A stretch of 64,000 bases of DNA from Luteibacter sp. Lineage in GTDB: Bacteria > Pseudomonadota > Gammaproteobacteria > Xanthomonadales > Rhodanobacteraceae. Each line of letters begins with the position of its first letter. The stretch's first letter is position 1. Shown here piece after piece: positions 9,633-25,245 of this stretch. The stretch covers positions 1-64,000 of the forward strand of contig NZ_WNDO01000003.1 of assembly GCF_009912395.1 (NCBI RefSeq), in the 5' to 3' direction. The translations under genes were made by a program, and so were the position numbers. The notes under the pieces were generated by a model, which worked only from the letters and a program-made list of their open reading frames with translations, was not told the origin of the DNA and made no database searches.

Positions 9633-11660
9633 ATGATGAAACTCCCCCTCACCGCCGCGATCGCGGCCGCGATCTTCGCGATGGGCGCTTCGGCGACCCC
9701 GGCGCCAGGCGGCTCCCCCCAACCGGTCGATACCGCTGAAGCCATCGACATCGGCGCAAGCGTACTCAAGGTGCGATACGCCCCCTTGTCGCGACTGGCA
9801 GACATCCTGACGTCTACGGACGGCGATCCCTCTCGCTGGTCTCCCGTGGGTGATGAGAAGAACACGGTCTCCGCTGACGATTCGATGGTGGCATGGATAT
9901 CGGCAGCGGCCCTGGCGACAGACAGCGCAAGAGCCGCCGCAGAGAAGCTCGTGCGCGATGGCGTCAACGTCCTCGTCACACAAAGGCAGGACGGATCGAA
10001 CCATGAGGCCAAGACCTTCGGCATCCAGGTACCCGGCACGGCCGTGATGTACCAGGCACGCGCGGATGGATCACTGGATGTCCATTCGTCCAATGCCGCC
10101 AAGGGTGCCGACCGTGCCACCTGGCAGGCCCTTACCGAGCATGCGGCACAGACGCGGGAGTCCACCTCTGCCCAGCGAGTGACCGCCGAAGCCGAAGACA
10201 GGCCAACAGGGCCGTTCAAGCGATATCACACATGGGTGATTTCTCCGGCCAATACGGGAGCGGCCGTGGGCATGGATATCACCGTGGCCCGTGACACGTC
10301 AGGCAATAACGACCGGAAGGTCGTGACTGTCAAGGCACATGCCCGCGCCATTCCGTTCCGAAACGGACTGACCCCGTCTGGCTGGCCCCAGACGGGCATC
10401 GACAAGGAGTTTCCGTTCACCAATCACGGCATGAATAAACTCTTGTACACCGTGGACAACTACAAGCTGATAACGACCTTGTCGTGGCCGGCCGGGCAGA
10501 AGCCCAACGTCTCCGCCGCGCACCAGTATCCGCAGTCCACCTCGGCCACGGATATCACCTTCACGAACACCCAGGAGAAGACGACATCGTTCAGTTGGGG
10601 CATCAGCGGCGAGGTGGGAGGGAAAGTCAGTGCCAAGGGTATCGAACCTTACGGCAAACTGAAGACAACCGTGGGCGGCGGGAACAAATCGACAACGACC
10701 AACGAAATGTCGATGACCGTGAAGGACTACAGCACGGCCTTGTCCCTGCGCGACGACTCCAATTCGAAAAGGGTCACGTGGACATTCGACATCTCGCGCG
10801 CCATCAAGGGCGACGTCAAATATTTCAATGCACCCGAAAAATATCCCGGATACGTCGAGGTCACGAAATTGACACCGATGATGCGGGCAGCAGACCTTCA
10901 GGGGTACTCGGAATGGATCCTTGACGGAAGCTACGAAGGGTCGTTGACTATCGCTTCCATCGCGGAAATCTACGACACCGTGTGGAAGAACACGACAAAC
11001 ACCAATGACACCCACATGGACTGGCCACAGAAGGCATACGCACATCTGGCCAAGCCGGATCCTCAGTTTCCCGACACACACCAGCCCGTGACGCGCATTA
11101 CCATCGATCTCGGCGTGCCACAGCTAGCCCGTTACCCCGTTGTGCTCATCCAGAGCATGTCACCCAACAGCACATGTCTTACCCAGAGCGGTGCCGGCAC
11201 GGAAGACATCAAGCTCGCCCCCTGCGTCGCTACGGAGCAGAACCTCTCTCAGCAGTGGGAGTTCGATGAACTCGATCGTTATGTGAACCGCGGCAGCAGA
11301 ATGTGCCTCGCCGCGGTAGGTGGAAAGGCCGTGGCACAAATTTGCTCGACCAGCCAAGCACAGAAATGGGTATGGCGGGCTGATCGAATCCACCAGGTGA
11401 ACAACTTGCAGCATCGACTCTTCGTCGAGCTAGGGATCGTGCGGTCAGGCTTCATCCAAGGCGTGCATCAGGACCTTCCCGTGAACACCAGTCATGAGCT
11501 TCTGCCCCCTTGGAACAATTATCTGCTGGCGCCGTTCAAGGGCGACTTCATCCCCGGATTCGCCCTACCGACCGACGTTCCCGAATCGTATCTCGGTTAT
11601 CGGCAGATCGGCACTGACGAACGCTGGAAGACCATTCCCATGGTCAACGGACTTTACTGA
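9633..11660 (+). CDS. Secreted pore-forming toxin, VCC/leukocidin family with beta-trefoil lectin domain (copy 1)
   Basis: 675 residues: signal peptide (1-21, ending ASA), a pro-region with NVLVTQRQ and KTFGIQVPGTAVMY, a central leukocidin-type domain with a Gly/Thr-rich pre-stem stretch (SFSWGISGEVGGKVSAKG, then KLKTTVGGG) and MTVKDYS, and a ricin-type beta-trefoil beginning near Cys514 with QQW (about 540) and QKW (about 576) motifs. Order and motifs recall Vibrio cholerae cytolysin; the protein ends where that toxin's beta-prism would begin. It likely inserts beta-barrel pores in eukaryotic membranes after lectin binding. The ribosome site is AGGAAG; the paralogue starts 26 bp downstream. 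Family assignment is by eye. Confidence 0.8.
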   Translation: MMKLPLTAAIAAAIFAMGASATPAPGGSPQPVDTAEAIDIGASVLKVRYAPLSRLADILTSTDGDPSRWSPVGDEKNTVSADDSMVAWISAAALATDSARAAAEKLVRDGVNVLVTQRQDGSNHEAKTFGIQVPGTAVMYQARADGSLDVHSSNAAKGADRATWQALTEHAAQTRESTSAQRVTAEAEDRPTGPFKRYHTWVISPANTGAAVGMDITVARDTSGNNDRKVVTVKAHARAIPFRNGLTPSGWPQTGIDKEFPFTNHGMNKLLYTVDNYKLITTLSWPAGQKPNVSAAHQYPQSTSATDITFTNTQEKTTSFSWGISGEVGGKVSAKGIEPYGKLKTTVGGGNKSTTTNEMSMTVKDYSTALSLRDDSNSKRVTWTFDISRAIKGDVKYFNAPEKYPGYVEVTKLTPMMRAADLQGYSEWILDGSYEGSLTIASIAEIYDTVWKNTTNTNDTHMDWPQKAYAHLAKPDPQFPDTHQPVTRITIDLGVPQLARYPVVLIQSMSPNSTCLTQSGAGTEDIKLAPCVATEQNLSQQWEFDELDRYVNRGSRMCLAAVGGKAVAQICSTSQAQKWVWRADRIHQVNNLQHRLFVELGIVRSGFIQGVHQDLPVNTSHELLPPWNNYLLAPFKGDFIPGFALPTDVPESYLGYRQIGTDERWKTIPMVNGLY

Positions 11661-11686
11661 ACTCCTATCAGGCAGGATGCCATCAT

Positions 11687-13741
11687 ATGAAAAAGACCTT
11701 ACTCAGTATCGCTTTGGGCATGTTGATTGCTCCGTTCGGCGCGACCGCGGTCGCGACGGATATCCCGGCAACGCATCGACCATCCGTCGGCACGTCCGAC
11801 ATCCGGTTCGTACATCTTTCCGAACTACCCGAACTGCTTTCGGGGCAGGCAAAAAGCACCCAAGAAAACTCTTCGTCCTCAACGACAAACCAACGATCCA
11901 GCAAGACGAGTTCGGCCGGTCCGGACCCGCTGATCGCCTGGATGCCCTCTACCGCACTATCCAGTGAAGAAGCCCGTATTGCTGCAGCGGAGCTCGTGCG
12001 GAGTGGCGTAGGCATCCTTGTGTCCGTCACACACGGCGCGCCTCGATATGACACGAAGACCTTCGGCATCGAGGCAGCAGGGCAGACCGTGCTCTATCAG
12101 CAACTGGCCGACGGCAAACTGGATGTATATAGCTCGGACGCCGGCCCGAATAGCCAACCCGAGGACTGGCTTGCGATGGTGACCCACACGAGGCGTGCAA
12201 TGGCCGATGCGGCGGCCCACGTCGCATCCACCGCCTCGAGCGATGACCTTCTCCCGGGCCCGTATAAGGAATACTCGCTCTCCGCTGGTGGAACCGCCGA
12301 CAAGCCATCTTTCGTGAAGTTGCTAGTACGCATCGATCGCGATTCCGGACTCAATCGCGACAATAAGATCATTACCGTACAGACCCAAAGCCAGGCCAAG
12401 CCTTACCGGAATGGTGTCTCAGACTGTGGCTTCCCACACGACTCTGGCGAGTGCGCTTTCCGTAGCAACGGAGAAGGTGTCATCCTGCAAGCGCCGTCGT
12501 CGTATCGTCTCAAAACGATGTTGACCTGGCCGACACTCCAGGATCCCGGCGTGGTCAAGATCGACCACTATCCGACAGCCACCGCACAGACCGATGTCAA
12601 CCTGACCCACACGAGCACGTACACCACTTCTTTCGACTGGGGCATTTCGAGAGAAACCGCCGGTGAACTGGGCAACGTCAGCGGCCCAGGCGGATTGACG
12701 GATGCGCTCGGCAAAGGCACTGCAAGCGTGGGTTTCAACATTGGCGGCGGTTGGACCAAGACCAAGCGTGACTCCGTCAAGATGACGGTGAAGGATTATT
12801 CGATCCAGACGCATGAGCAGAAAGTGAGTCTTCCCATCGGACAGATAGGCGCGATACACGAGACTCGGTTCACAATTACACCGCAGGTGGTGCATCACGA
12901 CTACTTCTGGAAAAGCGACGGCCGTGTTTCGACACAGAGAATGACGCCAATGATGTCGTCGGCTTCGCTCGAATCGCTCACTCGCTGGAAGGTTCGCGGC
13001 GATTACGAAGGGGGAATAACACTTTCGGCAACGACCGATATCCACGATCTCGTGTGGGGAGGCGCAAATTCGAAGCAGGGCCCGGTCTACGTCCATGATC
13101 GACCGCTGTCCAAGAATGGAGGAAATGCTCCGGGCGACGACCCGTACTTCCCTGATCACTACCAGGCAATCGTCACGTTAAAGATTGATCTCAGCTCCCC
13201 TTATCTCACGCGTTCGCCGACGGTCATGATCCAGTCAAGGGCTGAAGACAATACATGTCTTACGGCGGTCAATGCCGCGGTGACCGCGACGCGCTGTAAC
13301 AAGAGCGAAGGCAACCGAGCGCAACAGTGGAACATCGACGCTCTCGGGCGATATGTGAACAGGTCGAACGGCAAGTGCCTCACACCCGTTAACGGGGCAA
13401 TGGTGACCTCCGATTGCTCGATGCAGCTCTCTCAAAGGTGGGAGTGGCGCCATGACCGTATCCATTCTATCCAGGAGGACGGAATGAAGAGGCTCACCCT
13501 CTCCAAGGGCGCGGTGCAGCTCTCCTCCTATCTTGATGGCATCTACCTCGACCCGCTGCCGACCAACCCGGTCCACGCCGCATTGATGCCGTGGAGTTCG
13601 TATCCCGCGAAACCCAAGGTGGGCGACATGGTGCCCGGCTTCGGGCGTTCGGTGCCCCTACCCCAGCGCTATCTCGATTTCCGCGCAGTAAGCGCAGAGG
13701 AACGCTGGAACACCATCCCCTTCGTCGCTGGCCTCCAGTGA
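11687..13741 (+). CDS. Secreted pore-forming toxin, VCC/leukocidin family with beta-trefoil lectin domain (copy 2)
   Basis: 684 residues, a diverged paralogue of the preceding gene. It has a signal peptide (1-23), the KTFGIEAAGQTVLYQQLADG pro-region block, a pre-stem stretch (SFDWGISRETAGELG, GKGTASVGFNIGGGWT), MTVKDYS, RMTPMMSSASLESLTRWKV and a trefoil starting near Cys522 with QQW, LGRYVNRSNGKCL and LSQRWEW; the last two closely recall VCC. A 60-base sample at 12301-12360 is 31/60 G+C, against 30/40 at 14041-14080, hinting at acquisition. Likely co-transcribed with copy 1, since only 26 bp separate them, and followed by a strong terminator. The pair could act singly or as a two-component pore. 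Confidence 0.82.
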   Translation: MKKTLLSIALGMLIAPFGATAVATDIPATHRPSVGTSDIRFVHLSELPELLSGQAKSTQENSSSSTTNQRSSKTSSAGPDPLIAWMPSTALSSEEARIAAAELVRSGVGILVSVTHGAPRYDTKTFGIEAAGQTVLYQQLADGKLDVYSSDAGPNSQPEDWLAMVTHTRRAMADAAAHVASTASSDDLLPGPYKEYSLSAGGTADKPSFVKLLVRIDRDSGLNRDNKIITVQTQSQAKPYRNGVSDCGFPHDSGECAFRSNGEGVILQAPSSYRLKTMLTWPTLQDPGVVKIDHYPTATAQTDVNLTHTSTYTTSFDWGISRETAGELGNVSGPGGLTDALGKGTASVGFNIGGGWTKTKRDSVKMTVKDYSIQTHEQKVSLPIGQIGAIHETRFTITPQVVHHDYFWKSDGRVSTQRMTPMMSSASLESLTRWKVRGDYEGGITLSATTDIHDLVWGGANSKQGPVYVHDRPLSKNGGNAPGDDPYFPDHYQAIVTLKIDLSSPYLTRSPTVMIQSRAEDNTCLTAVNAAVTATRCNKSEGNRAQQWNIDALGRYVNRSNGKCLTPVNGAMVTSDCSMQLSQRWEWRHDRIHSIQEDGMKRLTLSKGAVQLSSYLDGIYLDPLPTNPVHAALMPWSSYPAKPKVGDMVPGFGRSVPLPQRYLDFRAVSAEERWNTIPFVAGLQ

Positions 13742-13779: not shown

Positions 13780-13875
13780 CGTGCCACGCCGTCACACCAC
13801 GGTCATATCCCCATAACCACCCGGACACGCCCCCGCGCGAGCATGCGTCAAGCCAGGGCCAGAAGGGGCACCGCC

Positions 13876-15033
13876 ATGCGAGTCGGCATCGTCACCGAGA
13901 CCTATGCACCGGACGTCAACGGGGTCTCCCTTACCGTCCAGGCGCTTGCCCGCGGACTCGTCCGCAAGGGCCATGACGTCGATCTCATTCGCCCCGTCCA
14001 CCCGAACACGCCCCCGCTCGCCGAAGCCGGCATGGACGTGCTCGCCGTCGAGGGTGCCACAGTCCCGCGCTATGCCGGCCTGCGCTTCGGCTTCCCTTCC
14101 CGCTTCCGCATCGAACGCCGCTGGCGCCTTGACCGCCCGGACGCGATCTACGTGGCAACCGAAGGTCCGCTAGGCTGGAGCGCCGTCAGCGCCGCCCGCC
14201 GCCTCGGCATTCCGGTGGCTACCGGCTTCCATACTCGCTTCGATTTCTACGTGGGCCACTACGGCTTCGGCGCCCTCACGCCGCTGGTGCGCCGCTACCT
14301 GGCCCGCTTCCATCGTCGTGCCCAGGTCACCCTGGTGCCGACCGGCCAGCTCGCCAGCGAACTCAACGACCTTGGCGTCCACGACGTGCGCGTGCTTCGT
14401 CGCGCGGTGGACACCCTGCGCTTCCAGCCCGACCGTCGCGACGACGACCTTCGGCAATCCTGGGGCGCCGACACGAATACGCCGGTCGTACTCAGCGTGG
14501 GCCGCGTGGCGCCGGAGAAGAACCTGCACGTGGTGATCGAGGCCTACCGTGCCCTCGCCCGCCGCGTACCCCACGCCCGCTGCGTAATCGTCGGCGACGG
14601 TCCGGAACGCGCGGCCCTCGAAGCCGCCCATCCCGACGTCATCTTCGCCGGCACGCGCCGTGGTGACGAGTTGGCCGCCTACTACGCCAGCGCGGACCTG
14701 TTCGTGTTCCCGAGCCTCACCGAAACCTTCGGCAACGTGGTGCTGGAAGCCATGGCCTCCGGCATCCCGGTCGTCGCCTACGCCGAGGCCGCAGCCCGGG
14801 AATTCATCCGCAACGGCCAGAACGGCATCCGCGTGGCACCGGGCAACGAGGCCGGGCTCGTCGAACGCGCAGCCATGCTCGGTGCCGACGCCACAGCTCG
14901 CCAAGCCATGGGACGCGCCGCGCGCGCCTCGGTGGCGGGCCTTTCGCCCGACTCCGTCATCACCGAATTCGAATCCATCATGCAGTCACTGGCCGGGGAG
15001 AACGTCCATGAGCGCACCGCCGTCGCGGCGTAA
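13876..15033 (+). CDS. Glycosyltransferase family 4 protein
   Basis: 385 residues with the GT-B fold pattern of family 4: an N-terminal acceptor domain beginning MRVGIVTETYAPDVNGVS and a C-terminal nucleotide-sugar domain with VVLSVGRVAPEKNL, VIVGDGPE and the ExFG-type ETFGNVVLEAMASGIPVV. It resembles lipid mannosyl/glucosyltransferases (MgtA- or SQD2-like), but the acceptor is not visible. The start at 13876 follows GAAGGGG and matches the family N-terminus; an ATG at 13843 would add eleven unconserved residues. It overlaps the PAP2 gene by 26 bp, so the two products may act on one lipid-linked substrate. Confidence 0.88.
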   Translation: MRVGIVTETYAPDVNGVSLTVQALARGLVRKGHDVDLIRPVHPNTPPLAEAGMDVLAVEGATVPRYAGLRFGFPSRFRIERRWRLDRPDAIYVATEGPLGWSAVSAARRLGIPVATGFHTRFDFYVGHYGFGALTPLVRRYLARFHRRAQVTLVPTGQLASELNDLGVHDVRVLRRAVDTLRFQPDRRDDDLRQSWGADTNTPVVLSVGRVAPEKNLHVVIEAYRALARRVPHARCVIVGDGPERAALEAAHPDVIFAGTRRGDELAAYYASADLFVFPSLTETFGNVVLEAMASGIPVVAYAEAAAREFIRNGQNGIRVAPGNEAGLVERAAMLGADATARQAMGRAARASVAGLSPDSVITEFESIMQSLAGENVHERTAVAA

Positions 15034-15541
15034 CCTCGATTCACGCATGTGCGTGGCCGCCAACCGCTGGGGCGCGCGACGCGCCATCGGCGTTTTCTTT
15101 GGCATCGTCAGCCGACTCGGCGATGGCGTCTTCTGGTATGCGCTGATGACCGTCATCGCGCTGGTCGGCGGCTGGCACGGCGTGGCCGTGGCGGCGCAGA
15201 TGGCCGTCACCGGCCTGACCGCCCTGATGCTCTATCGCGTGCTGAAGCGCTGGACCAAGCGCCCCCGCCCCTTCCGCGCCTGCCCGGGTGTGATCGCCCA
15301 TGTGCCGCCGCTGGACGAGTTCAGCTTCCCTTCCGGCCACACTCTGCAGGCGGTGGCGTTCACCGTCGTGGCCGTGGCCCATTACCCGGTGCTCGGCCCC
15401 TTCCTGATCGGCTTCGCGGCGCTTATCGGCGCGTCACGCGTGGTCCTCGGCTTGCACTATCCAAGCGATGTCGCGGCGGCCACGCTCATCGGCGGTTCGC
15501 TGGGCACGCTTTCGCTGTGGGTGGAGCGCGTGCTGCTCTGA
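15008..15541 (+). CDS. PAP2-family membrane phosphatase
   Basis: 177 residues with all three phosphatidic-acid-phosphatase motifs: K80 to RP at 87-88 (KRWTKRPRP), PSGH at 108-111, and SRVVLGLHYPSD at 143-154 with the catalytic His150. Hydrophobic helices place it in the inner membrane, where it would remove phosphate from a lipid phosphate or pyrophosphate. The start ATG lies inside the glycosyltransferase gene with GGGGAG upstream (translational coupling). Its last 85 bp overlap the convergent lanM 3' end. Confidence 0.9.
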   Translation: MSAPPSRRNLDSRMCVAANRWGARRAIGVFFGIVSRLGDGVFWYALMTVIALVGGWHGVAVAAQMAVTGLTALMLYRVLKRWTKRPRPFRACPGVIAHVPPLDEFSFPSGHTLQAVAFTVVAVAHYPVLGPFLIGFAALIGASRVVLGLHYPSDVAAATLIGGSLGTLSLWVERVLL

Positions 15542-18405
15542 GCCACTGCACGATCCGTCGGCACCAACACCGACGGCAGGACACAACGCGGATCCATGCG
15601 CAGCAACTGGTAGGCGACACCACCCACGCCTGCCATCAGGCCGGGCGACAAGGTTTCGCCCACCGTGCCGCAGTAAGGGCCATGCGTTTCCAGGCTCTGG
15701 ATGATCGCCGCCTCCAGCGTCTCGCGTGACAGGTCCGCGGGCGCCCACCCCTCCTTCAGGGCGTGATCGAACAACTCCCACGTACCGAGATCGCCGTGGC
15801 ACAGGCCGTGGTGATTCACGCCCATGCCCTTGCGCCACAGCGTTTCCGTCGCGCGGCGCAGCATGCCTTGCCGGGGACCCTGGGAGAAACCCAGGTCCAC
15901 CCACGCCAGGCCGATACCTGTCGCACCGTGGCACCAGGCCACCGAAAACTTATCGACGCCGACACCGCGCAGATCGCGCCAGTTGCCTTCCGCGTCGTCG
16001 AACAAGGCATCTTCGAAAGCGAAGGCCGCGTCCGCCATCGTCTGATAGCGCACGTGCCCCGTCACCGCCGCCAGCTTGTGCAGCGCCCAGCCGATACCCG
16101 TCACGCCATGCCCGAAGCCGCCGAGACCATGAGCCCAGCGCTCGTGTGGCCAGCATGCCTTGCCATCGCCGACCTTGGCGCGATCGCAAAGGCGGTCGCC
16201 GATGCCGCGCGCGACATCCAGCCAGGTGGCTTCACCGCTCGCACGGTAGAGGTGCAACAGCGGTACGATGCCGCCCGCCGCTCCCGTCAGCAGGTCATCA
16301 ATGTCGTCGGCCTCGACCGCTTCCGGCATCAACGCCGCCAGCTCGCCAGCTCGCTCGATACCTTCACCGTGCGTCGCACCCAGTGCGTCCAGCGAAAGCC
16401 ACGTCCATATCTGTGAGCCGAGTCCGATGTAACCGCCCGGCGGTGTCGGCCGCGGTCGCGTCACACGTGCACGACGCACGAACAGCTCGGTCTGCGTCAT
16501 GCGCATCGAGCGGACGATGGCGTCACGCAACGACGCGATGCCGTCGACGGCGTCGGCCCGCCCCGCCTCCATTTCGACGGCATAGCCTGCCGTCAGAAGC
16601 GCCAGCCCGGAAAGACCGCCATACAGATCCTGCGCCAGCGGCTGGACGCTGCGCCCATTCGGGCCCAGCACCGAGGCGATCCATGTCGCGCTGGCGTCGT
16701 CGGCGCGTATCGCGCGCGATATCAGCGAGCGCATGACGGACCCGGCAAGCGAACGCCGCCGTGTATCCAGGTCATCGCGGCGAGGTTCGGTTACCCATAG
16801 CGACCGCTCGGCCGACGTCCAGGCGTCCGACGCATACGCGCTGGAGAGCGCGCCATGGATCACCCGGCGCTCCAGACCAAGGTCCGCCTTGCGCCAGTGG
16901 GCAAGTGCCTCGTCGGCGAGTTGTTTCGGTTCCAGCCAGTGCGTTCCGCGTGGGCCATCGAGGCGCCCCTGCGAAACCGTCGTGGAAAAATAGGGAATAT
17001 CGCCATCCAGCAGGTCGGCGATCTCTCCCGCGATCACGGTGTCGTCATCCGGCGAGAGTGCGCGAGTCTCCCCGGACTTGTGCAACAACGACGCGGCGTG
17101 GGTGATCGCCGTCTCGGGATCGTGCAACGACACGGGGTGCCACAACATGCGGGCCAGCTCCGCGTACGTCTCCGTGGCGCGCAGTACCACGCGCACCAGG
17201 CAACGATCGAACGCCCGCAACCGGGGTGCCAATCCACCGCGTGCATCGAGTGTACGCAATGCGTCCGTCAGCGTGTCGAAGCCGGCGAGGACATCCGCCC
17301 AGTAGCGAGAAAGCTCGGGATGTTCGCTCGGGTGATTGCGCGCACGCTCGACCTCCACCGCGACGCTGCCCAGGCGGGCGCGATCCGTGCCGCCGTCGAC
17401 GATGGTGGATATGGTCACCTTCGGCTGTTCGCCGGGCAACGCACCGATACCCGAGGTATCCACGCCACGCCAGCCCAGGCCACCGCCCCGCCCCGGCAAC
17501 ATGCCCATGGCGAGCACGGTGCCATCGATCATCGCCCCGGCACGATCCTGCGCACCGCCCATGCCCGACGGCTTCGCTTCGACACGCGGCGTGAACAGCG
17601 TCTCGCAATCGATGACGAAGGGATGCGGTCCATGCGCGATGAGGTTTTCGGCATGCAGATCGGTACCGCCGAGCAACCGCATCAGGGCGAGCCACTCACC
17701 GGTGCCGCGGTAGAACGCGGCCAGTTCGTCGGGACTCGACGCATAGCGGTGCTCGACAAACGTCGTCCATCCATAGCCATCGCGCTCGATCGCCTCGGGC
17801 ACGCGCATGGACGTATCGACACCCAGTTCCTGGATGAAGCGCCGCAGTTCGACATCGATGGCGACAGAACGTGGCTTGTAGACCACGCGTGCCTGCTCAC
17901 AGCGGAGTAAGGCCACCGTCTGTCCACCGGCATGACTATCGCCTGCCCCCAGTTCCAGCCCGGTCAGTTCGCCAAGCGGCGTGCCGACAAGCGCCTGCAA
18001 CGCATCCCGATCGGCGGCAAACCGCTGGGCAAGTTCCAGCCCGCGGACGAAGCGCGCATCAACGAGGGTACGGACACGCTCCGCCATCGTCGGGTAATGC
18101 TCGTCCAGGCTACGCCAGTAAGCCGGCGTCGAGGACAAGGCGATGAATTCGTGCCAGCGCGCCACGCTGTCGGGCGCCACCAGCAAGCCGTCTTCGACGG
18201 CCGCATGCAACTCCAGCAAAAGCACGCGGCAAAGTCGCCCGTGCAAGCTGGCCACCGCGGTGTCGTGCACGCTGCGATGGATGACCTGCTGCTCGTTGGC
18301 GGAAAGGTCCTGTACTTCGGCGAGCTGGGCTACCAAGTGGGCCGACGCATCGGCGACCAGGCAGCCCAGCGATTCGCTGAAATCGGCGTCCATGCCCGAC
18401 GTCAT
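15457..18405 (-). CDS. lanM: Class II lanthipeptide synthetase LanM
   Basis: A bifunctional 982-residue LanM. The N-terminal DUF4135 dehydratase has VVYKPRS near residue 176, GGTDLHAENLI near 246-255 and DCETLF near 265, the kinase-like residues that phosphorylate and eliminate Ser/Thr. The C-terminal LanC-like cyclase has the zinc ligands in AWCHGATG (Cys about 824) and GLCHGDLG (Cys-His about 867). It would dehydrate the precursor cores and close (methyl)lanthionine rings. The start at 18405 lies 10 bp after the lanA1 stop, without a clear ribosome site; 18393 is an alternative. The last ~28 residues are unconserved and read antisense through the PAP2 3' end. Confidence 0.93.
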   Translation of the reverse strand: MTSGMDADFSESLGCLVADASAHLVAQLAEVQDLSANEQQVIHRSVHDTAVASLHGRLCRVLLLELHAAVEDGLLVAPDSVARWHEFIALSSTPAYWRSLDEHYPTMAERVRTLVDARFVRGLELAQRFAADRDALQALVGTPLGELTGLELGAGDSHAGGQTVALLRCEQARVVYKPRSVAIDVELRRFIQELGVDTSMRVPEAIERDGYGWTTFVEHRYASSPDELAAFYRGTGEWLALMRLLGGTDLHAENLIAHGPHPFVIDCETLFTPRVEAKPSGMGGAQDRAGAMIDGTVLAMGMLPGRGGGLGWRGVDTSGIGALPGEQPKVTISTIVDGGTDRARLGSVAVEVERARNHPSEHPELSRYWADVLAGFDTLTDALRTLDARGGLAPRLRAFDRCLVRVVLRATETYAELARMLWHPVSLHDPETAITHAASLLHKSGETRALSPDDDTVIAGEIADLLDGDIPYFSTTVSQGRLDGPRGTHWLEPKQLADEALAHWRKADLGLERRVIHGALSSAYASDAWTSAERSLWVTEPRRDDLDTRRRSLAGSVMRSLISRAIRADDASATWIASVLGPNGRSVQPLAQDLYGGLSGLALLTAGYAVEMEAGRADAVDGIASLRDAIVRSMRMTQTELFVRRARVTRPRPTPPGGYIGLGSQIWTWLSLDALGATHGEGIERAGELAALMPEAVEADDIDDLLTGAAGGIVPLLHLYRASGEATWLDVARGIGDRLCDRAKVGDGKACWPHERWAHGLGGFGHGVTGIGWALHKLAAVTGHVRYQTMADAAFAFEDALFDDAEGNWRDLRGVGVDKFSVAWCHGATGIGLAWVDLGFSQGPRQGMLRRATETLWRKGMGVNHHGLCHGDLGTWELFDHALKEGWAPADLSRETLEAAIIQSLETHGPYCGTVGETLSPGLMAGVGGVAYQLLRMDPRCVLPSVLVPTDRAVAQSSTRSTHSESVPSEPPMSVAAATSLG

Positions 18406-18415
18406 GTCAGCGCGA

Positions 18416-18622
18416 TCAGGCGCACTGGATGATGCGCGTCGTCTTGATCGAGCCGGTACAGGTGGCGCAATCGGTGACGGCGATGTCCGTGCCGCCCACG
18501 ATATCCGCCTCGGCGAAGGCATTGGCGAACAGGTCGCCCGCCGGGTTGCCGTTGCCGGCCTGCTTGCGCCACTCGGCGGCGCGGCTGACGGACTTCGACG
18601 AATAGCCCATTTCATTGCTCAT
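18416..18622 (-). CDS. Class II lanthipeptide precursor LanA1
   Basis: A 68-residue precursor immediately upstream of lanM. The leader (MSNEMGYSSKSVSRAAEWRK, then a Gly/Asn stretch and LFANAFAEADIVGG) ends in a double glycine at 43-44. The 24-residue core begins TDIAVTDCATCTGSI and has Cys at 52, 55 and 67, with Thr 45, 50, 54, 56, 61, 62 and Ser58 as dehydration candidates, so up to three rings are possible. The ATG at 18622 is preceded by AAAGGGAG. The leader matches that of LanA2 in length and in the FAEADIVGG block. Ring pattern and bioactivity cannot be read from sequence. Confidence 0.9.
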   Translation of the reverse strand: MSNEMGYSSKSVSRAAEWRKQAGNGNPAGDLFANAFAEADIVGGTDIAVTDCATCTGSIKTTRIIQCA

Positions 18623-18665
18623 CCGAACACTCCCTTTGCACAGTTTCGTTGATGGAAAAACTGAA
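18623..18665 (-). promoter_or_regulatory. Upstream block of lanA1 shared with lanA2
   Basis: The 5' region of lanA1 contains CTCCCTTTGCACAGTTTC followed by a GATGGAAAAACTG stretch; the equivalent lanA2 region (19130-19170) has CTCCCCATTGCACAGTTTC and GATGAAAGGACTG. The shared block covers the ribosome site (GGGAG on the coding strand) and about 30 bp beyond it, so the precursor duplication included 5' control sequence. No -10/-35 pair is called. Confidence 0.55.
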
Positions 18666-18752
18666 CTTCCGTGGCGGTGCTGACAGAACGGCATGGCGAA
18701 GGGGCACACGATGCATCGACCATCGTTCCGACAACCCTCCCGATTCTTTTCA

Positions 18753-18771
18753 TGTGAACACCAGGTTCACA
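18753..18771. promoter_or_regulatory. Perfect inverted repeat upstream of lanA1 (candidate operator)
   Basis: TGTGAACACCAGGTTCACA is a perfect 7-bp inverted repeat with a five-base spacer, 131 bp upstream of the lanA1 start. Its size and spacing fit a dimeric repressor or activator site. No regulator gene is adjacent, so the binding protein is unknown. Confidence 0.5.
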
Positions 18772-18849
18772 AGAGGCCCTGCGCTATCGGCCACGCACGC
18801 ATGTCGTTTCGAAGGAAACTTTTTTCAGCTGTCGTCGACGATTACACCG

Positions 18850-18882
18850 TTACGCACATATGCCAAAAAGTTATATGCGTAA
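18850..18882. promoter_or_regulatory. Imperfect inverted repeat between lanA2 and lanA1
   Basis: TTACGCACATAT (18850-18861) faces ATATGCGTAA (18873-18882) across an A-rich loop. The arms match apart from a two-base insertion. It lies 35 bp past the lanA2 stop and could be a weak transcript-end hairpin or a second regulator site for lanA1. The surrounding 18790-18900 is visibly more AT-rich than the flanks. Confidence 0.4.
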
Positions 18883-18916
18883 TCGGCAATTGGCGCCGAA
18901 GGCCTTTACATGATGC

Positions 18917-19129
18917 TCATGCACCGCACTGGATATGACGCGTGCGGGTATCGATGGATCCCGTACACATCAGGCAGTCGGTCACGACGATGTCGGTGCC
19001 ACCGACGATATCGGCCTCGGCGAACTCGGAGGCGAACAGCGCTCCCGCCGGGCTTTCGGCAGAGGCATTCGAGCGCCAGAACGCAGCGCGAGCGGAAGAC
19101 TGCGAAGCACGCATGGATTCAACGATCAT
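18917..19129 (-). CDS. Class II lanthipeptide precursor LanA2
   Basis: A 70-residue precursor, paralogous to LanA1. The leader ends LFASEFAEADIVGG with the double glycine again at 43-44. The 26-residue core begins TDIVVTDCLMCTGSI and ends RHIQCGA, with Cys at 52, 55 and 68. ATG 19129 has GGGGAG seven bases upstream; the in-frame ATG at 19144 overlaps that site and is less likely. The two cores share the TDC, CTGSI and IQC positions but differ in charge between them (Asp60 and Arg/His here; Lys/Thr in LanA1), as in two-peptide or variant lantibiotics. Confidence 0.9.
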   Translation of the reverse strand: MIVESMRASQSSARAAFWRSNASAESPAGALFASEFAEADIVGGTDIVVTDCLMCTGSIDTRTRHIQCGA

Positions 19130-19306
19130 CTGGATACTCCCCATTGCACAGTTTCATGGATGAAAGGACTGCGCCGGCGGAGCGGATGTCACATGCGTTG
19201 GAAAAGGCCACCCCTGCCTGGCCGAAGGATTTTTCGGCATCCGGGGAACGGCGGTGACGCGGATTCGGCAAGGGGTAACACCACCCTTGCACGTCGTCAC
19301 GAACCT

Positions 19307-19372
19307 GTAGGAGCGCGCTTGCGCGCGATGGGTGCTTGCGGCAACTCCCATCGCGCGCAAGCACGCTCCTAC
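19307..19372. repeat. REP inverted pair
   Basis: GTAGGAGCGCGCTTGCGCG at the left and its complement ending GCACGCTCCTAC at the right (one base changed), enclosing a short loop. It lies between accD's 3' end and the lanA2 upstream region. Confidence 0.9.
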
Positions 19373-19383
19373 AACAGCAGGGA

Positions 19384-20256
19384 TCAGGCGGCGGCGCGCG
19401 GGGCCTTTTCGAGGATGCCGAGCATCGCACCGAGCTTCTCGCGCATCTCGCGACGGTCGACGATCACGTCGACCGCGCCGTGGTCCACGAGGAACTCCGA
19501 GCGCTGGAAGCCTTCCGGCAGCGTCTCGCGCACGGTCTGCTCGATGACGCGCGGACCGGCGAAGCCGATCAGGGCCTTCGGCTCGGCCACATTGAGGTCA
19601 CCCAGCATGCCCAGGCTGGCGGACACGCCACCCGTGGTCGGATGGGTGAGCACCGAGATGTACGGAACGCCGGCGTCGCGCATGCGAGCGAGCGCGGCGG
19701 AGGTCTTCGCCATCTGCATGAGGGAGAACAGGCCTTCCTGCATGCGGGCACCGCCGGTGGCGGAATAACAGACCAGCGCGGACTTCTCGGCCAGGGCCTT
19801 CTCGGCGGCGCGGGTGAACTTCTCACCCACCACCGAACCCATCGAGCCGCCCATGAAGGAGAACTCGAAGGCCACGGCCACCAGCGGACGCTCCAGCAGC
19901 GTGCCGGACATCGCGATCAGCGCGTCCTTCTCGCCCGTGGACTTCTGCGCCGCGGCGACGCGATCCTTGTACTTCTTCTGGTCCTTGAACTTGAGCGCGT
20001 CGACGGCTTCCAGCTTCGGCCACAGTTCGGTCGTGGAACCGGCGTCGAAGAAGGCGTTCAGGCGCGCACGCGCGGAGATCGCGTGGTGGTGGCCGCACTT
20101 GGGGCAGACCATGAGCGACTTCTCGAGCTCCGGCTTGTACAGCACGGTGCCACAGCCGGCGCACTTCTCCCACACACCCTCGGGCACCTTGCCCTTGCCG
20201 CCGGCCGCGCTCGGTGCGCGGGTCTTCGGCGTCATGATCTTTTGCAGCCAGTTCAT
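19384..20256 (-). CDS. accD: Acetyl-CoA carboxylase carboxyltransferase subunit beta
   Basis: 290 residues. The N-terminal zinc ribbon has CAGC (about 33-36) and CPKC, followed by the carboxyltransferase core with [25 protein letters not shown] and the [15 protein letters not shown] stretch that binds acyl-CoA. With AccA it transfers carboxyl from biotin to acetyl-CoA in the first step of fatty-acid synthesis. It lies downstream of trpA with a 38-bp gap, the usual trp-accD arrangement in gammaproteobacteria lacking a unified trp operon. Confidence 0.97.
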
Positions 20257-20294
20257 CGTGTCTCTCCGAGTATCTGTACTAACGCGCCAACCGC

Positions 20295-21095
20295 TCAGCG
20301 CGCGTCGAGCGCGGCGCGGATTGGGGCGAGGAATTCCCTTGCCCTGCCGACGGCCTTGTCGGCCGAGGTCGCGTCCTTGAGACGATCGACCAGGGCGCTG
20401 CCAATGACCACGGCATCGGCGAATTCGCCGATGGCTTTCGCCGACGCCGCATCGCGAACACCGAAGCCGACGGCGACAGGCGCCTTCGACCGGGCACGGA
20501 TGCTGGCCACCCGCTCCGCGATATCCCCGGTGCTGAGCTGGGCGGCACCGGTGATGCCATTGAACGACACATAGTACAGGAAGCCGGCGGCGGCCTCGCA
20601 GAGCTTGCCCAGGCGGCGCTCAGCCGTGGTCGGCGAGGCCAGCAGGATCTGGTCGAGACCGGCATCCTTCAGCGGGGCCAGGACGTGCGATTCCTCCAGC
20701 GGGCAATCCACCATCAGGACGCCATCGACGCCAGCTTCGGCCGCATCTTCGGCGAACGACGCGTAACCATACATTTCGACGGGATTGAGATAGCCCATCA
20801 GCACGATGGGTGTCTCGTTATCCGTCTCACGAAAGGCTGCGATCCAGGCGAGGACGTTGCCGAGCCCCACGCCCCTGGCGATGGCGCGTTCGGACGAATG
20901 CTGGATGACCGGACCATCAGCCATGGGGTCCGAGAACGGTACGCCCACCTCGATCAGGTCCACGCCGCTGGCCACCAGGCCATGCAACAGGGATACCACG
21001 TGTTCGTGCGACGGATCGCCCGCGGTGACAAAGGTGACCAGGCCGGTGCGACCGGCCTCCTTGAGTGCCGCGAAACGGCGTTCGATGCGGCTCAT
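20295..21095 (-). CDS. trpA: Tryptophan synthase alpha subunit
   Basis: 266 residues with the TIM-barrel signature [20 protein letters not shown], whose Glu and the later Asp of [10 protein letters not shown] are catalytic in cleaving indole-3-glycerol phosphate. The start ATG shares one base with the trpB stop (TGATG), giving tight translational coupling for the alpha2-beta2 complex. Length is standard. Confidence 0.97.
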
Positions 21096-22306
21096 CAGAG
21101 TTCGATTCCTTCGCGGGCGGCGATGGTGTGCACGTCCTTGTCGCCACGACCGGACAGATTGGCGAGGACGATGGCATCCTTCGGCAGTTCGCGGGCCAGC
21201 TTCATCGCCTGGGCGATGGCGTGGCTGGATTCCAGCGCGGGAAGGATGCCTTCCGTGCGCGCCAGTAGGTGGAAGGCTTCCAGCGCTTCGTCGTCAGTGA
21301 CGCCGACGTACTCCGCGCGACCGGCGTCCTTCAGGAAGGCATGCTCGGGGCCCACGCCCGGGTAGTCCAGGCCGGCCGACACCGAATGCGTCTCGATGAT
21401 CTGACCGTTGGCGTCCGACAGCACGTAGGTACGGTTGCCGTGCAGCACGCCCGGCTTGCCGGCGGCCAGCGACGCGGCGTGGCGACCGGTCTCGATACCA
21501 TCGCCCGCCGCCTCGGCGCCGACGATGCGGACATCGCGGTCGTTGAGGAAGGCATGGAACAGGCCGATGGCATTGGAGCCGCCACCCACGCAGGCCGTGA
21601 TGACATCCGGCAGGCGGCCGAACTGCTCAAGCACCTGTGCGCGGGCCTCGCGACCCACGATGGCGTTGAAGTCGCGCACCATCTGCGGATACGGATGCGG
21701 ACCGGCGACGGTGCCGATGATGTAGAAGGTGTCCGCGACGTTGGTGACCCAGTCGCGCATCGCCTCGTTCAGGGCGTCCTTGAGCGTCTTCGAGCCGGAG
21801 GTGACCGGTACCACTTCGGCGCCCAGCAGGCGCATGCGGTAGACGTTGATCTTCTGGCGCTCGATATCGGTGGCGCCCATGTAGACCACGCATTTCAGGC
21901 CGAGGCGCGCAGCGACCGTGGCGCTGGCCACGCCATGCTGGCCCGCACCGGTCTCGGCGATGATGCGCGGCTTGCCCATGTGCCGTGCGACCAGCGCCTG
22001 GCCCACGGTGTTGTTGATCTTGTGCGCGCCCGTGTGGTTCAGGTCTTCGCGCTTGAGCACGATGCGCGCGCCGCCCACATGCTTCGACAGGCGCTCGGCG
22101 TGGTACACGGGACTCGGACGGCCCACGTAGTACTTCAGGTCACGGTCCAGCTCGGCGATGAAGGCAGGATCGTTGCGCAGCTTCTCGTAGGCGGCGGTGA
22201 GTTCGGCGAGCGGCTCCATGAGCGTCTCGGCCACATAGATGCCGCCGAAGTCGCCGAAGCGCCCATGGGCGTCGGGATAGGCGTGGAAATCCGCGATCTC
22301 GGTCAT
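21095..22306 (-). CDS. trpB: Tryptophan synthase beta subunit
   Basis: 403 residues. The PLP lysine is in [15 protein letters not shown], the phosphate-binding loop is [10 protein letters not shown], and [10 protein letters not shown] is also present. It condenses indole with serine. Its gene lies between trpF (29 bp upstream) and trpA (one-base overlap), so the last steps of tryptophan synthesis are co-expressed. Confidence 0.97.
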
Positions 22307-22335
22307 TGCCTTTGGTCTACCTTCTGGTTGCCGCG

Positions 22336-22959
22336 TCAGGCGCTGGGGACGGCGCGTACGGCGGAGATGAACCGTTCCATCTTAGCCCCATCCTTGATCC
22401 CCGGCGATGCCTCGATACCGCTGGAAACGTCCACGCCCCAGGGCCGGGCGATGCGAATGGCCTCGCCCACGTTCTCCGCAGTGAGCCCTCCGGCGAGGAC
22501 GAGCGGTTGAGCCAGGTCCTTCGGCATCAGCGACCAGTCGAAACGCTGGCCGCTGCCGCCCAGCTCGCCCAGGCCGTGACCGTCGAGCAGGAGGCCGACA
22601 GCGCGTGGATACGCGCGCAGGCGCGGTAGCGCGGACGCCCCCTCCCCCATCGCCACCGCCTTCAGGTAGCGCACGCCGAAGGAGGCGCAGAAGTCGTCGG
22701 TCTCCTCGCCGTGGAACTGGAGGAGATCCGGACGCAACACCCGCAGGATCTCGTCGATGTAGGCGCGGTCGTCGTCCATCACCAGCGCCACGGTGGTGAC
22801 GAAGGGCGGCACGACGTCGCGCAGGGTCGCCGCGGCGACCGGATCGACGAAGCGCTTGCTGCGCCGGGTCATCACGAAGCCCACCGCGTCGGCACCGAGG
22901 CGCGCGGCGCGCTGCACGTCGTCGATGCGGGTAAGGCCGCAGCACTTGATCCGGGTCAT
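22336..22959 (-). CDS. trpF: Phosphoribosylanthranilate isomerase
   Basis: 207 residues with the N-terminal [11 protein letters not shown] and the phosphate-binding end [10 protein letters not shown] and GVDVSSGIE. It catalyses the Amadori rearrangement in tryptophan synthesis. The start ATG overlaps the truA stop by four bases (ATGA), giving the frequent truA-trpF coupling. A longer in-frame extension upstream reads through truA and is not coding. Confidence 0.95.
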
Positions 22960-23723
22960 AGGGTGACTTCCGATGGCAGCCCCCAATGGGCCTCGTACTT
23001 CGGACCGAGGAAGGTCAGGCCTTCCGCCGGTGCGGTGGCGCCGGCCACGTCGCGATCGAGGCCTGCGAGCAGTTCGGCCATCCAACCGATGTCCTGCTCG
23101 CCACGTCCGATGGGAATGAGCGAGCCGACGATGTTGCGGACCATGTGATGCAAAAACGCGTTGGCTTCAATCTCCACCACCACATGAATGTCGTCACGGA
23201 ACACGCGAATGGAGCGCACGTTCCGGCGCGCATGTGCCGCCTGGCAGGCGATCGCGCGGAAGGCGGAAAAATCGTGTTCGCCAATCAAGGCCTGCGCTGC
23301 TTCGTGCATGCGGTCGGCGTCCAGCGGCTTGCGCTCCCAGGCAACGAAGCGCGCGTCGAGTGCCGGGCGCACGTAACGCGGCAGCAGGCGGTAGCGGTAC
23401 TGGCGTGCACGCGCGGAAAAGCGCGCGTGGAAATCGTCAGCGACCGGCTGTGCCCAGGTCACCGCAACGGTACGCGGCAGGTTGGAGCACGCCCCGAGCA
23501 CCCAGCCGCGCATGTCGCGCACGATGTCGGTGTCGAAGTGCACCACCTGGCAGCGACCATGCACACCTGCATCGGTGCGACCCGCGGCCGTCACCTCGAT
23601 CGGCGTATCCGCGACCTTGGTGAGCGCGTTCTCAAGGGCACCCTGCACGGTCTTCGCGTGACTGAGCCGCTGCCAGCCGAGGAAGTCGGTGCCGTCGTAT
23701 TCGACGCCAAGTGCGATGCGCAT
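22956..23723 (-). CDS. truA: tRNA pseudouridine(38-40) synthase
   Basis: 255 residues. The catalytic Asp lies in [19 protein letters not shown], preceded by [13 protein letters not shown] and followed by [13 protein letters not shown]. It modifies uridines 38-40 in the tRNA anticodon arm. It is the first gene of the truA-trpF-trpB-trpA-accD run; a long REP pair lies upstream. Confidence 0.96.
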
Positions 23724-23770
23724 GGGGTTATTCAGTGAATCGGGAAACGGTAAAGGGTACCACTCCCCCC

Positions 23771-23835
23771 GTAGGAGCGCGCTTGCGCGCGATGGGGGTC
23801 ACCGCAGCCCCCATCGCGCGCAAGCGCGCTCCTAC
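23771..23835. repeat. Long REP inverted pair
   Basis: Two REP units in opposite orientation form an almost perfect 65-bp hairpin: GTAGGAGCGCGCTTGCGCG and CGATGGGGG on the left pair with CCCCCATCG and the complement on the right. It lies between truA and fumC. Confidence 0.92.
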
Positions 23836-23847
23836 AAGGAGATCCGG

Positions 23848-25245
23848 TCAGCCGCCGGAGCCGCCACCGCCGTGGATGCCACCCTTGGTCAGGGCGGCGG
23901 GGTCGAGCAGCTTGGCCAGCTCGGCCTTCGACAGGCCGGTGGTCTCCAGGGCGACGTCCAGGATGGGACGCTTTTCCTTGTAGGCCTGCTTGGCCGTCGC
24001 CGCGCCCTTCTCGTAGCCGATGACCGGATTCAGGGCCGTGACCAGGATCGGATTCTTGTCGAGCGCCTCGCGCACGTGGTCCTCGTTCACCTTGAACCCG
24101 GCGATGGCCTTGTCGGCCAGCAGCACGCACACGTTGGCGAGGATCTCGATCGACTGCAGCACGTTATAGGCGATCACCGGCAGCATGACGTTGAGCTGGA
24201 AATTGCCGGATTGGCCGCCGATGGCGATCGTCGCGTCGTTGCCGATCACCTGCGCGGCCACCATCGTCGCCGCCTCCGGAATCACCGGATTGACCTTGCC
24301 CGGCATGATGGACGATCCTGGCTGCAACGCCGGCAGCTCGATTTCGCCCAGGCCGGCCAGCGGACCCGAATTCATCCAGCGCAGGTCGTTGGCGATCTTC
24401 ATGATCGCTACCGCGAGGCCGCGCAATTGGCCGGAAAGCTCCACCGGAGCGTCCTGGGCCGCCATGCCCGAGAAATAGTTGTCCGAGGACTCGAACTTCA
24501 CGCCGGTGAGCTTGGCGAGCTCGACTGCCACGGCCGGACCGAACTTCGGGTCGGCGTTGATACCGGTGCCGACGGCACTGCCACCCTGCGGCAGGCGACG
24601 CATGCGCTTGAGGGTGTCGCCGATGCGCTCTTCGGCGTCGCCGATCTGCGCGGACCAGCCGGACAGCTCCTGGCCAAAGGTGATCGGCATGGCGTCCATG
24701 AGATGGGTGCGCCCGGTCTTGACCACCTTCTTCAGCTCCTTGGCGCGGATGTCGATGGTCTTGCGAAGGTGCTTGAGCGCCGGCAGCAGCTTCTCGCTGG
24801 TGGCGAGCGTGGCGCTGACCAGGATCGCGGTGGGAATGACGTCGTTGGAACTTTGCCCGGCGTTGACGTGGTCGTTCGGATGCACCTTGGCGCCGGCCGC
24901 CTCGGCGAGGTGGGCGATGACCTCGTTGGCATTCATGTTGGAGCTGGTGCCCGAACCCGTCTGGAAGACGTCGATGGGGAAATGCTCGTCGACCTCCCCC
25001 GCCGCCACTTTCGCCGCCGCCTCGCGGATCGCCTTGGCGGCGCCCTTGTCGAGATGACCCAGCTTCACATTGGCTTCGGCGGCCGCCGACTTGATGAGAC
25101 CCAGCGCACGGATGAACTCGCGCGGCATGGTCAGGCCGGAGATGGGGAAGTTGTCCACCGCCCGCTGCGTCTGGGCGCCGTAAAGGGCCTTGGCGGGTAC
25201 CTTCAACTCGCCCATGCTGTCGCGTTCGGTGCGGAACTTGCTCAT
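23848..25245 (-). CDS. fumC: Class II fumarate hydratase
   Basis: 465 residues of the oxygen-stable fumarase that interconverts fumarate and malate in the TCA cycle. It has the signature GSSIMPGKVNP, the TGSGTSSNMNANEVIA block and GRTHLMDAMP. The C-terminus ends in a Gly-rich GGGGSGG tail. It is monocistronic between repeats, with no oxidative-stress regulator or sod gene nearby. Confidence 0.96.
   Translation of the reverse strand: MSKFRTERDSMGELKVPAKALYGAQTQRAVDNFPISGLTMPREFIRALGLIKSAAAEANVKLGHLDKGAAKAIREAAAKVAAGEVDEHFPIDVFQTGSGTSSNMNANEVIAHLAEAAGAKVHPNDHVNAGQSSNDVIPTAILVSATLATSEKLLPALKHLRKTIDIRAKELKKVVKTGRTHLMDAMPITFGQELSGWSAQIGDAEERIGDTLKRMRRLPQGGSAVGTGINADPKFGPAVAVELAKLTGVKFESSDNYFSGMAAQDAPVELSGQLRGLAVAIMKIANDLRWMNSGPLAGLGEIELPALQPGSSIMPGKVNPVIPEAATMVAAQVIGNDATIAIGGQSGNFQLNVMLPVIAYNVLQSIEILANVCVLLADKAIAGFKVNEDHVREALDKNPILVTALNPVIGYEKGAATAKQAYKEKRPILDVALETTGLSKAELAKLLDPAALTKGGIHGGGGSGG

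Follow-up and report, generated by a model that had tools for sequence, protein, structure and literature searches.

A stretch of 64,000 nucleotides from a Luteibacter genome, hereafter the window, carries a class II lanthipeptide locus (15457-19129) that is real and intact, and that serves well as a further example of a described peptide type, not as a new kind of antibiotic. We consider it highly probable (about 0.92) that this type is the already described rhodanocin, the window locus being rhodanocin-type with two paralogous precursors, A1 and A2. What remains new here is the fixed A2 variant and also the absence of a C39 exporter in the window genome.

Layout of the locus and its LanM synthetase

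The locus is transcribed on the minus strand in the order lanA2, lanA1, lanM. The first gene, lanA2 (18917-19129, minus strand, ATG at 19129), encodes a DUF6229 precursor of 70 amino acids with the core TDIVVTDCLMCTGSIDTRTRHIQCGA, 26 residues past the double glycine, and lanA1 (18416-18622, minus strand, ATG at 18622) encodes one of 68 amino acids with the core TDIAVTDCATCTGSIKTTRIIQCA, 24 residues past the double glycine. The class II lanthipeptide synthetase gene lanM (15457-18405, minus strand, 982 amino acids) likely starts at the ATG at 18405, ten bases past the stop codon of lanA1; the start given in the list of open reading frames is 18615. Against the PF19740 (DUF6229) profile, the two precursors scored 45.9 and 39.8 bits (Pfam cut-off 25), and A1 as a query retrieved A2 at an E value of 1e-19 (62% identity), so their likeness is not a matter of chance. 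NCBIfam precursor models gave no match to A1 or A2 at E values up to 10. The FAEADIVGG block and the TDC..CTGSI stretch match exactly between the two precursors. The spacing to IQC is unequal, A2 being one residue longer (C11-C24 vs C11-C23 in A1). The preliminary description, made from the letters of the window, was therefore right about the shared block, TDC and CTGSI spacing and wrong about a common IQC spacing; its two small genes of 68 and 70 codons followed by a LanM hold in reading frame, strand and coordinates.

The LanM protein scored 570.8 bits on TIGR03897 (cut-off 304). Its alignment with LicM2 (6st5) covered nearly the whole protein, and that with CylM (5dzt) the dehydratase half plus weak stretches of the cyclase. 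The dehydratase motifs are unchanged (GDSH from 155, YKPR from 176, TDLHAEN with HAEN from 251, and IDCET from 265), R405 and T411 are present within LVRVVLRAT, and the cyclase motifs GFGHG (from 763), WCHG (from 824) and LCHG (from 868) are unchanged as well. We take the individual residues of these motifs to have the catalytic and zinc-binding roles familiar from LanM enzymes. Alignment and profiles thus find a DUF4135 dehydratase and a LanC-like cyclase with catalytic and zinc motifs in one LanM, as in class II. The reading of this protein as a full LanM with kinase-like and cyclase zinc residues is borne out, none of these residues being mutated in the LicM2/CylM alignment, and PF19740 and TIGR03897 matches support a class II locus made up of two precursor genes and a single lanM.

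Eight neighbouring genes were scanned (13873 to 25245), encoding a glycosyltransferase, a PAP2-family phosphatase, AccD, TrpA, TrpB, a TrpF-like protein, a tRNA pseudouridine synthase and a fumarase-like protein; no exporter or protease gene was found among them. The conserved PAP2 gene (15008-15541, plus strand) overlaps the 3' end of lanM; since genomes without the locus have it too, it probably plays no role in the biosynthesis. The two genes are convergent, with an 85-base overlap at 15457-15541, in which the final LanM residues are read opposite the PAP2 3' end. The conserved upstream neighbour accD (19384-20256, minus strand) bounds the variable site on the opposite side. A long inverted repeat lies between accD and lanA2 (19306-19373), with outer arms equal at 25 of 26 positions; its end words GTAGGAGCG and CGCTCCTAC occur in 12 copies each in the 64-kb window, mostly as close pairs, which points to a REP-like family. 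Farther off, at 9633-13741, a tandem gene pair encodes secreted-looking proteins (675 and 684 amino acids) that each have a ricin-B lectin domain match, and one relative of these proteins adjoins the glycosyltransferase gene in genome G149.

Correspondence with the published rhodanocin

A DUF6229 class II lanthipeptide from 'Dyella' sp. 333MFSha has been produced from a refactored cluster and its structure solved, with rhodanocins as the proposed name; the precursor of this peptide, LanII, is the DUF6229 protein WP_043693394.1 (PMC9576775). That report describes four dehydrations and three (methyl)lanthionines (LL-lanthionine and DL-methyllanthionine), with rings Thr6-Cys11, Cys8-Ser14 and Thr12-Cys23 and Dhb18, in a 23-mer made with AspN (PMC9576775). 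The activity on Klebsiella was weak (K. pneumoniae MIC 126 uM), the AspN product being probably not the native one, so that it may understate rhodanocin activity (PMC9576775). LanII and LanII-23 were called the first characterised gammaproteobacterial lanthipeptides in 2022 (PMC9576775). Strain 333MFSha has been placed among Luteibacter mycovicinus strains (PMC11165876).

Counted from the residue after the double glycine (Thr = 1), A1 has T6, C8, C11, T12, S14, T18 and C23, i.e., all seven modified positions of rhodanocin, and these are matched by A1 in all five carriers among 23 Luteibacter genomes. A2 agrees with these positions up to Ser14, beyond which one inserted residue moves the matches to Thr19 and Cys24. 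Residue 2 of A1 is Asp in the window strain and in G149, in which AspN would yield D2-A24, a product of 23 residues, and Glu in the other three carriers. The likeness of the window locus to rhodanocin thus extends over the genus (after reclassification, PMC11165876), the DUF6229 leader and a possible double-glycine block, and for A1 also over three rings' worth of cysteines, the seven modified positions and the 23-residue AspN product. Residue positions, product length and genus are the grounds for putatively equating A1 with the published precursor. On the other hand, one precursor is spoken of in the rhodanocin report (PMC9576775), whereas the window strain has two, and A2 differs from rhodanocin in an outer ring that would be one residue larger and in its Gly-Ala tail. 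Compared with A1 of G149, window A1 carries extra Thr10 and Thr17, which could alter dehydration.

The window's cores had been described at the outset as unlike known lantibiotics, and their product as possibly new. The first statement is reasonable as regards the mersacidin, lichenicidin and haloduracin types. It does not extend to rhodanocin, and a new product mostly falls away, since rhodanocin is published with its ring pattern, stereochemistry and weak anti-Klebsiella activity (PMC9576775). Judged by residue positions, an already characterised core homologue exists for A1, and largely for A2.

Maturation and the role of the second precursor

By analogy with published rhodanocin, the rings would form in the same way. 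LanM would bind the DUF6229 leaders of A1 and A2, phosphorylate and then eliminate core Ser/Thr residues, and close three thioether rings in A1 (Thr6-Cys11, Cys8-Ser14 and Thr12-Cys23). A2 is probably modified by the same LanM, with an outer ring Thr12-Cys24 that would be one residue larger, and one Thr would stay as Dhb (position 18 in A1, 19 in A2). The leader would then be removed, and the mature peptide is expected to leave the cell by a route other than a C39 exporter (LanT/PCAT) dedicated to the locus. Any activity of the products is presumed from that of the published relative.

A Pfam PF03412 search of the window genome, with an estimated completeness of 100%, returned no C39-ABC exporter (LanT/PCAT); its single C39 match is a protein of 226 amino acids closest to FapD and FilB. 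This contig 11 protein was rejected as a leader peptidase: it scored 134.7 bits for FapD (cut-off 330) and 133.0 for FilB (cut-off 475), two nearly equal scores that each fall short of the cut-off, and similar C39 matches (70.7 to 79 bits) occur in 22 of the 23 genus genomes regardless of the locus. ABC-sized C39 frames are present elsewhere in other carriers (four in G148, three in G149, one in G143), so C39 export is possible there; G152 has a weak one. The nine window-type precursors carry the FAEADIVGG block; the 39 other DUF6229-type precursors compared with them lack it. Given this and the lack of a C39-ABC exporter in the window genome, a double-glycine cleavage site in the A1 and A2 leaders is doubtful, and the GG probably should not be equated with a proven C39 site here: the shared block of the preliminary description stands, its role as a processing site much less so. 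The C39 protease LahT150 is reported to have failed to cut the rhodanocin peptide despite a possible double-glycine motif (PMC9576775).

A2 is present in four of the five carriers, G149 having A1 only. In all four, A2 has its extra residue after Ser14 and before the conserved Thr, carries Cys24 and ends in Gly-Ala; such a maintained A2 variant was not found in print in the open-access literature searched. We somewhat favour A2 as a dosage or diversity copy, giving two similar products with overlapping targets. This would agree with the 62% identity, the same leader block and the same ring residues, and with the tandem precursor pairs that other DUF6229 types also have (L019, L030 and L033 are examples), although A2-specific features fixed over four species would be needless for mere dosage.

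Two-peptide lantibiotics of the known alpha/beta kind have dissimilar cores, and a CTxTxEC motif is typical of them. A1 and A2 are instead close paralogues. Haloduracin and lichenicidin share with the window locus two precursors and a class II synthetase, whereas the window locus has one LanM, paralogous cores and no CTxTxEC motif; the cores likewise fit neither a mersacidin nor an alpha/beta two-peptide type, and both were set aside. The LanII-2D and LanII-57 cores are described as dissimilar in the rhodanocin report (PMC9576775). A true two-peptide system, in which modified A1 and A2 act jointly and are weak alone, is accordingly improbable. It could account for the retention of A2 in four of five carriers with its own fixed features (dN/dS 0.10-0.32 over six pairs) and for the weakness of the published single peptide (126 uM), of which the AspN form may understate the activity (PMC9576775), but the paralogous cores have the same ring residues and one common LanM, and G149 carries A1 alone. 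The proposal of a new two-peptide lanthipeptide is thus unsupported. Equally unlikely, in our estimate, is a cooperating pair in which A2 is the fixed partner of A1, both are matured and exported without a C39 peptidase, and the GG takes part in LanM recognition, not cleavage.

Distribution in Luteibacter and related DUF6229 loci

Window-type precursors were found in 5 of 23 Luteibacter genomes, namely the window genome (G000), G148, G143, G149 and G152. Among named relatives, Luteibacter anthropi comes closest (locus L004; A1 93% identical) and was the only one found in the contig scan. The order accD, precursor(s), lanM, PAP2, glycosyltransferase is common to three further Luteibacter (G148, G143 and G149), and G152 has accD, A2, A1 and lanM, with the contig end inside lanM. 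In the 18 genus genomes without the locus, the distance between accD and the glycosyltransferase gene is 525 to 2576 bases, PAP2 is present throughout (18/18), and no A1 or A2 match was found at this site at E values up to 1e-4. Short LanM matches (27 to 39 amino acids) in the survey of the accD-PAP2 site are antisense to the PAP2 3' end. Across the order, a profile search scoring 15 candidates per genome gave some match in 18 of 398 genomes, with scores over 130 bits only in four Luteibacter carriers (carrier G152 is missing among the matches listed); the other 14 lay between 33 and 52 bits, a range that reflects general likeness to DUF6229. As a family, DUF6229 was detected in 34 of the 147 genomes from the bacterial family, and none of the 14 control genomes had it.

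Between the window and L. anthropi, dN/dS was 0.09 for A1, 0.10 for A2, 0.10 for LanM and 0.09 for accD. Over all pairs it ranged over 0.09-0.44 for A1 (n=10), 0.10-0.32 for A2 (n=6), 0.10-0.29 for LanM (n=6, the incomplete G152 left out) and 0.06-0.10 for accD (n=10); several of the underlying dS values exceed 1 and are rough. A separate leader and core ratio for A1 was left unused (24 core codons, one pair above 1). These low ratios, with intact reading frames and motifs, speak against a decaying locus without a product, which we hold to be very unlikely even though the locus is absent from this site in 18 of 23 genus genomes and no exporter or protease gene stands among the eight neighbours. 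In a weakly resolved tree of AccD and the glycosyltransferase (G152 without the second gene), the carriers take up three neighbouring positions: G000, G148 and G143 together, G149 beside non-carrier G133, and G152 beside non-carriers G062 and G153. This is compatible with one gain followed by losses or with several gains.

A text pattern caught 48 distinct DUF6229-type precursors in the loci examined, uncaught ones being left out of this count; five fit the A1 pattern, four the A2 pattern and 39 neither. These 39 have 2, 4 or 5 cysteines in the last 30 residues, never 3, and differ from the window type in this count, in a mostly CC end and in being without FAEADIVGG. The likeness of other DUF6229 precursors to the window type, including a Lysobacter set (PMC11451712) and those of the C19 and C35 loci, is one of leader family. 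C19 and C35 also have a LanM in the same locus. Together with the window locus they account for the three genes for LanM and the four for DUF6229 precursors in the window genome. The C35 locus (L040:5557-8785) combines a DUF6229 precursor with core end GGCGTACTGSRTRFCC and a LanM 51% identical to the window LanM. The C19 locus (L039:8174-10241) combines a LanM with a DUF6229 precursor whose core ends in CSSCTASRPGACC. A divergent ABC exporter adjoins the C19 precursor gene (TIGR01194, cyclic peptide export, 322.9 vs a cut-off of 286.2), and it does so, in opposite direction, in 8 of 8 genus genomes with a C19-type precursor (G000, G010, G047, G062, G076, G101, G112 and G133). It is a good candidate for export of the C19 lanthipeptide. 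It was rejected as an exporter serving the window type in general, because three carriers, G143, G149 and G152 (the last only 80% complete), gave no match to it at E values up to 1e-40.

Gammaproteobacterial lanthipeptides have hardly been characterised so far. The window locus supplies two natural variants of rhodanocin with a one-residue difference in a ring, and the search of its genome returned no C39 exporter that could take off the leader. Two questions thereby become testable: whether the two products as a pair surpass the weak activity of the published peptide, and what protease and what exporter complete the maturation of DUF6229 lanthipeptides.
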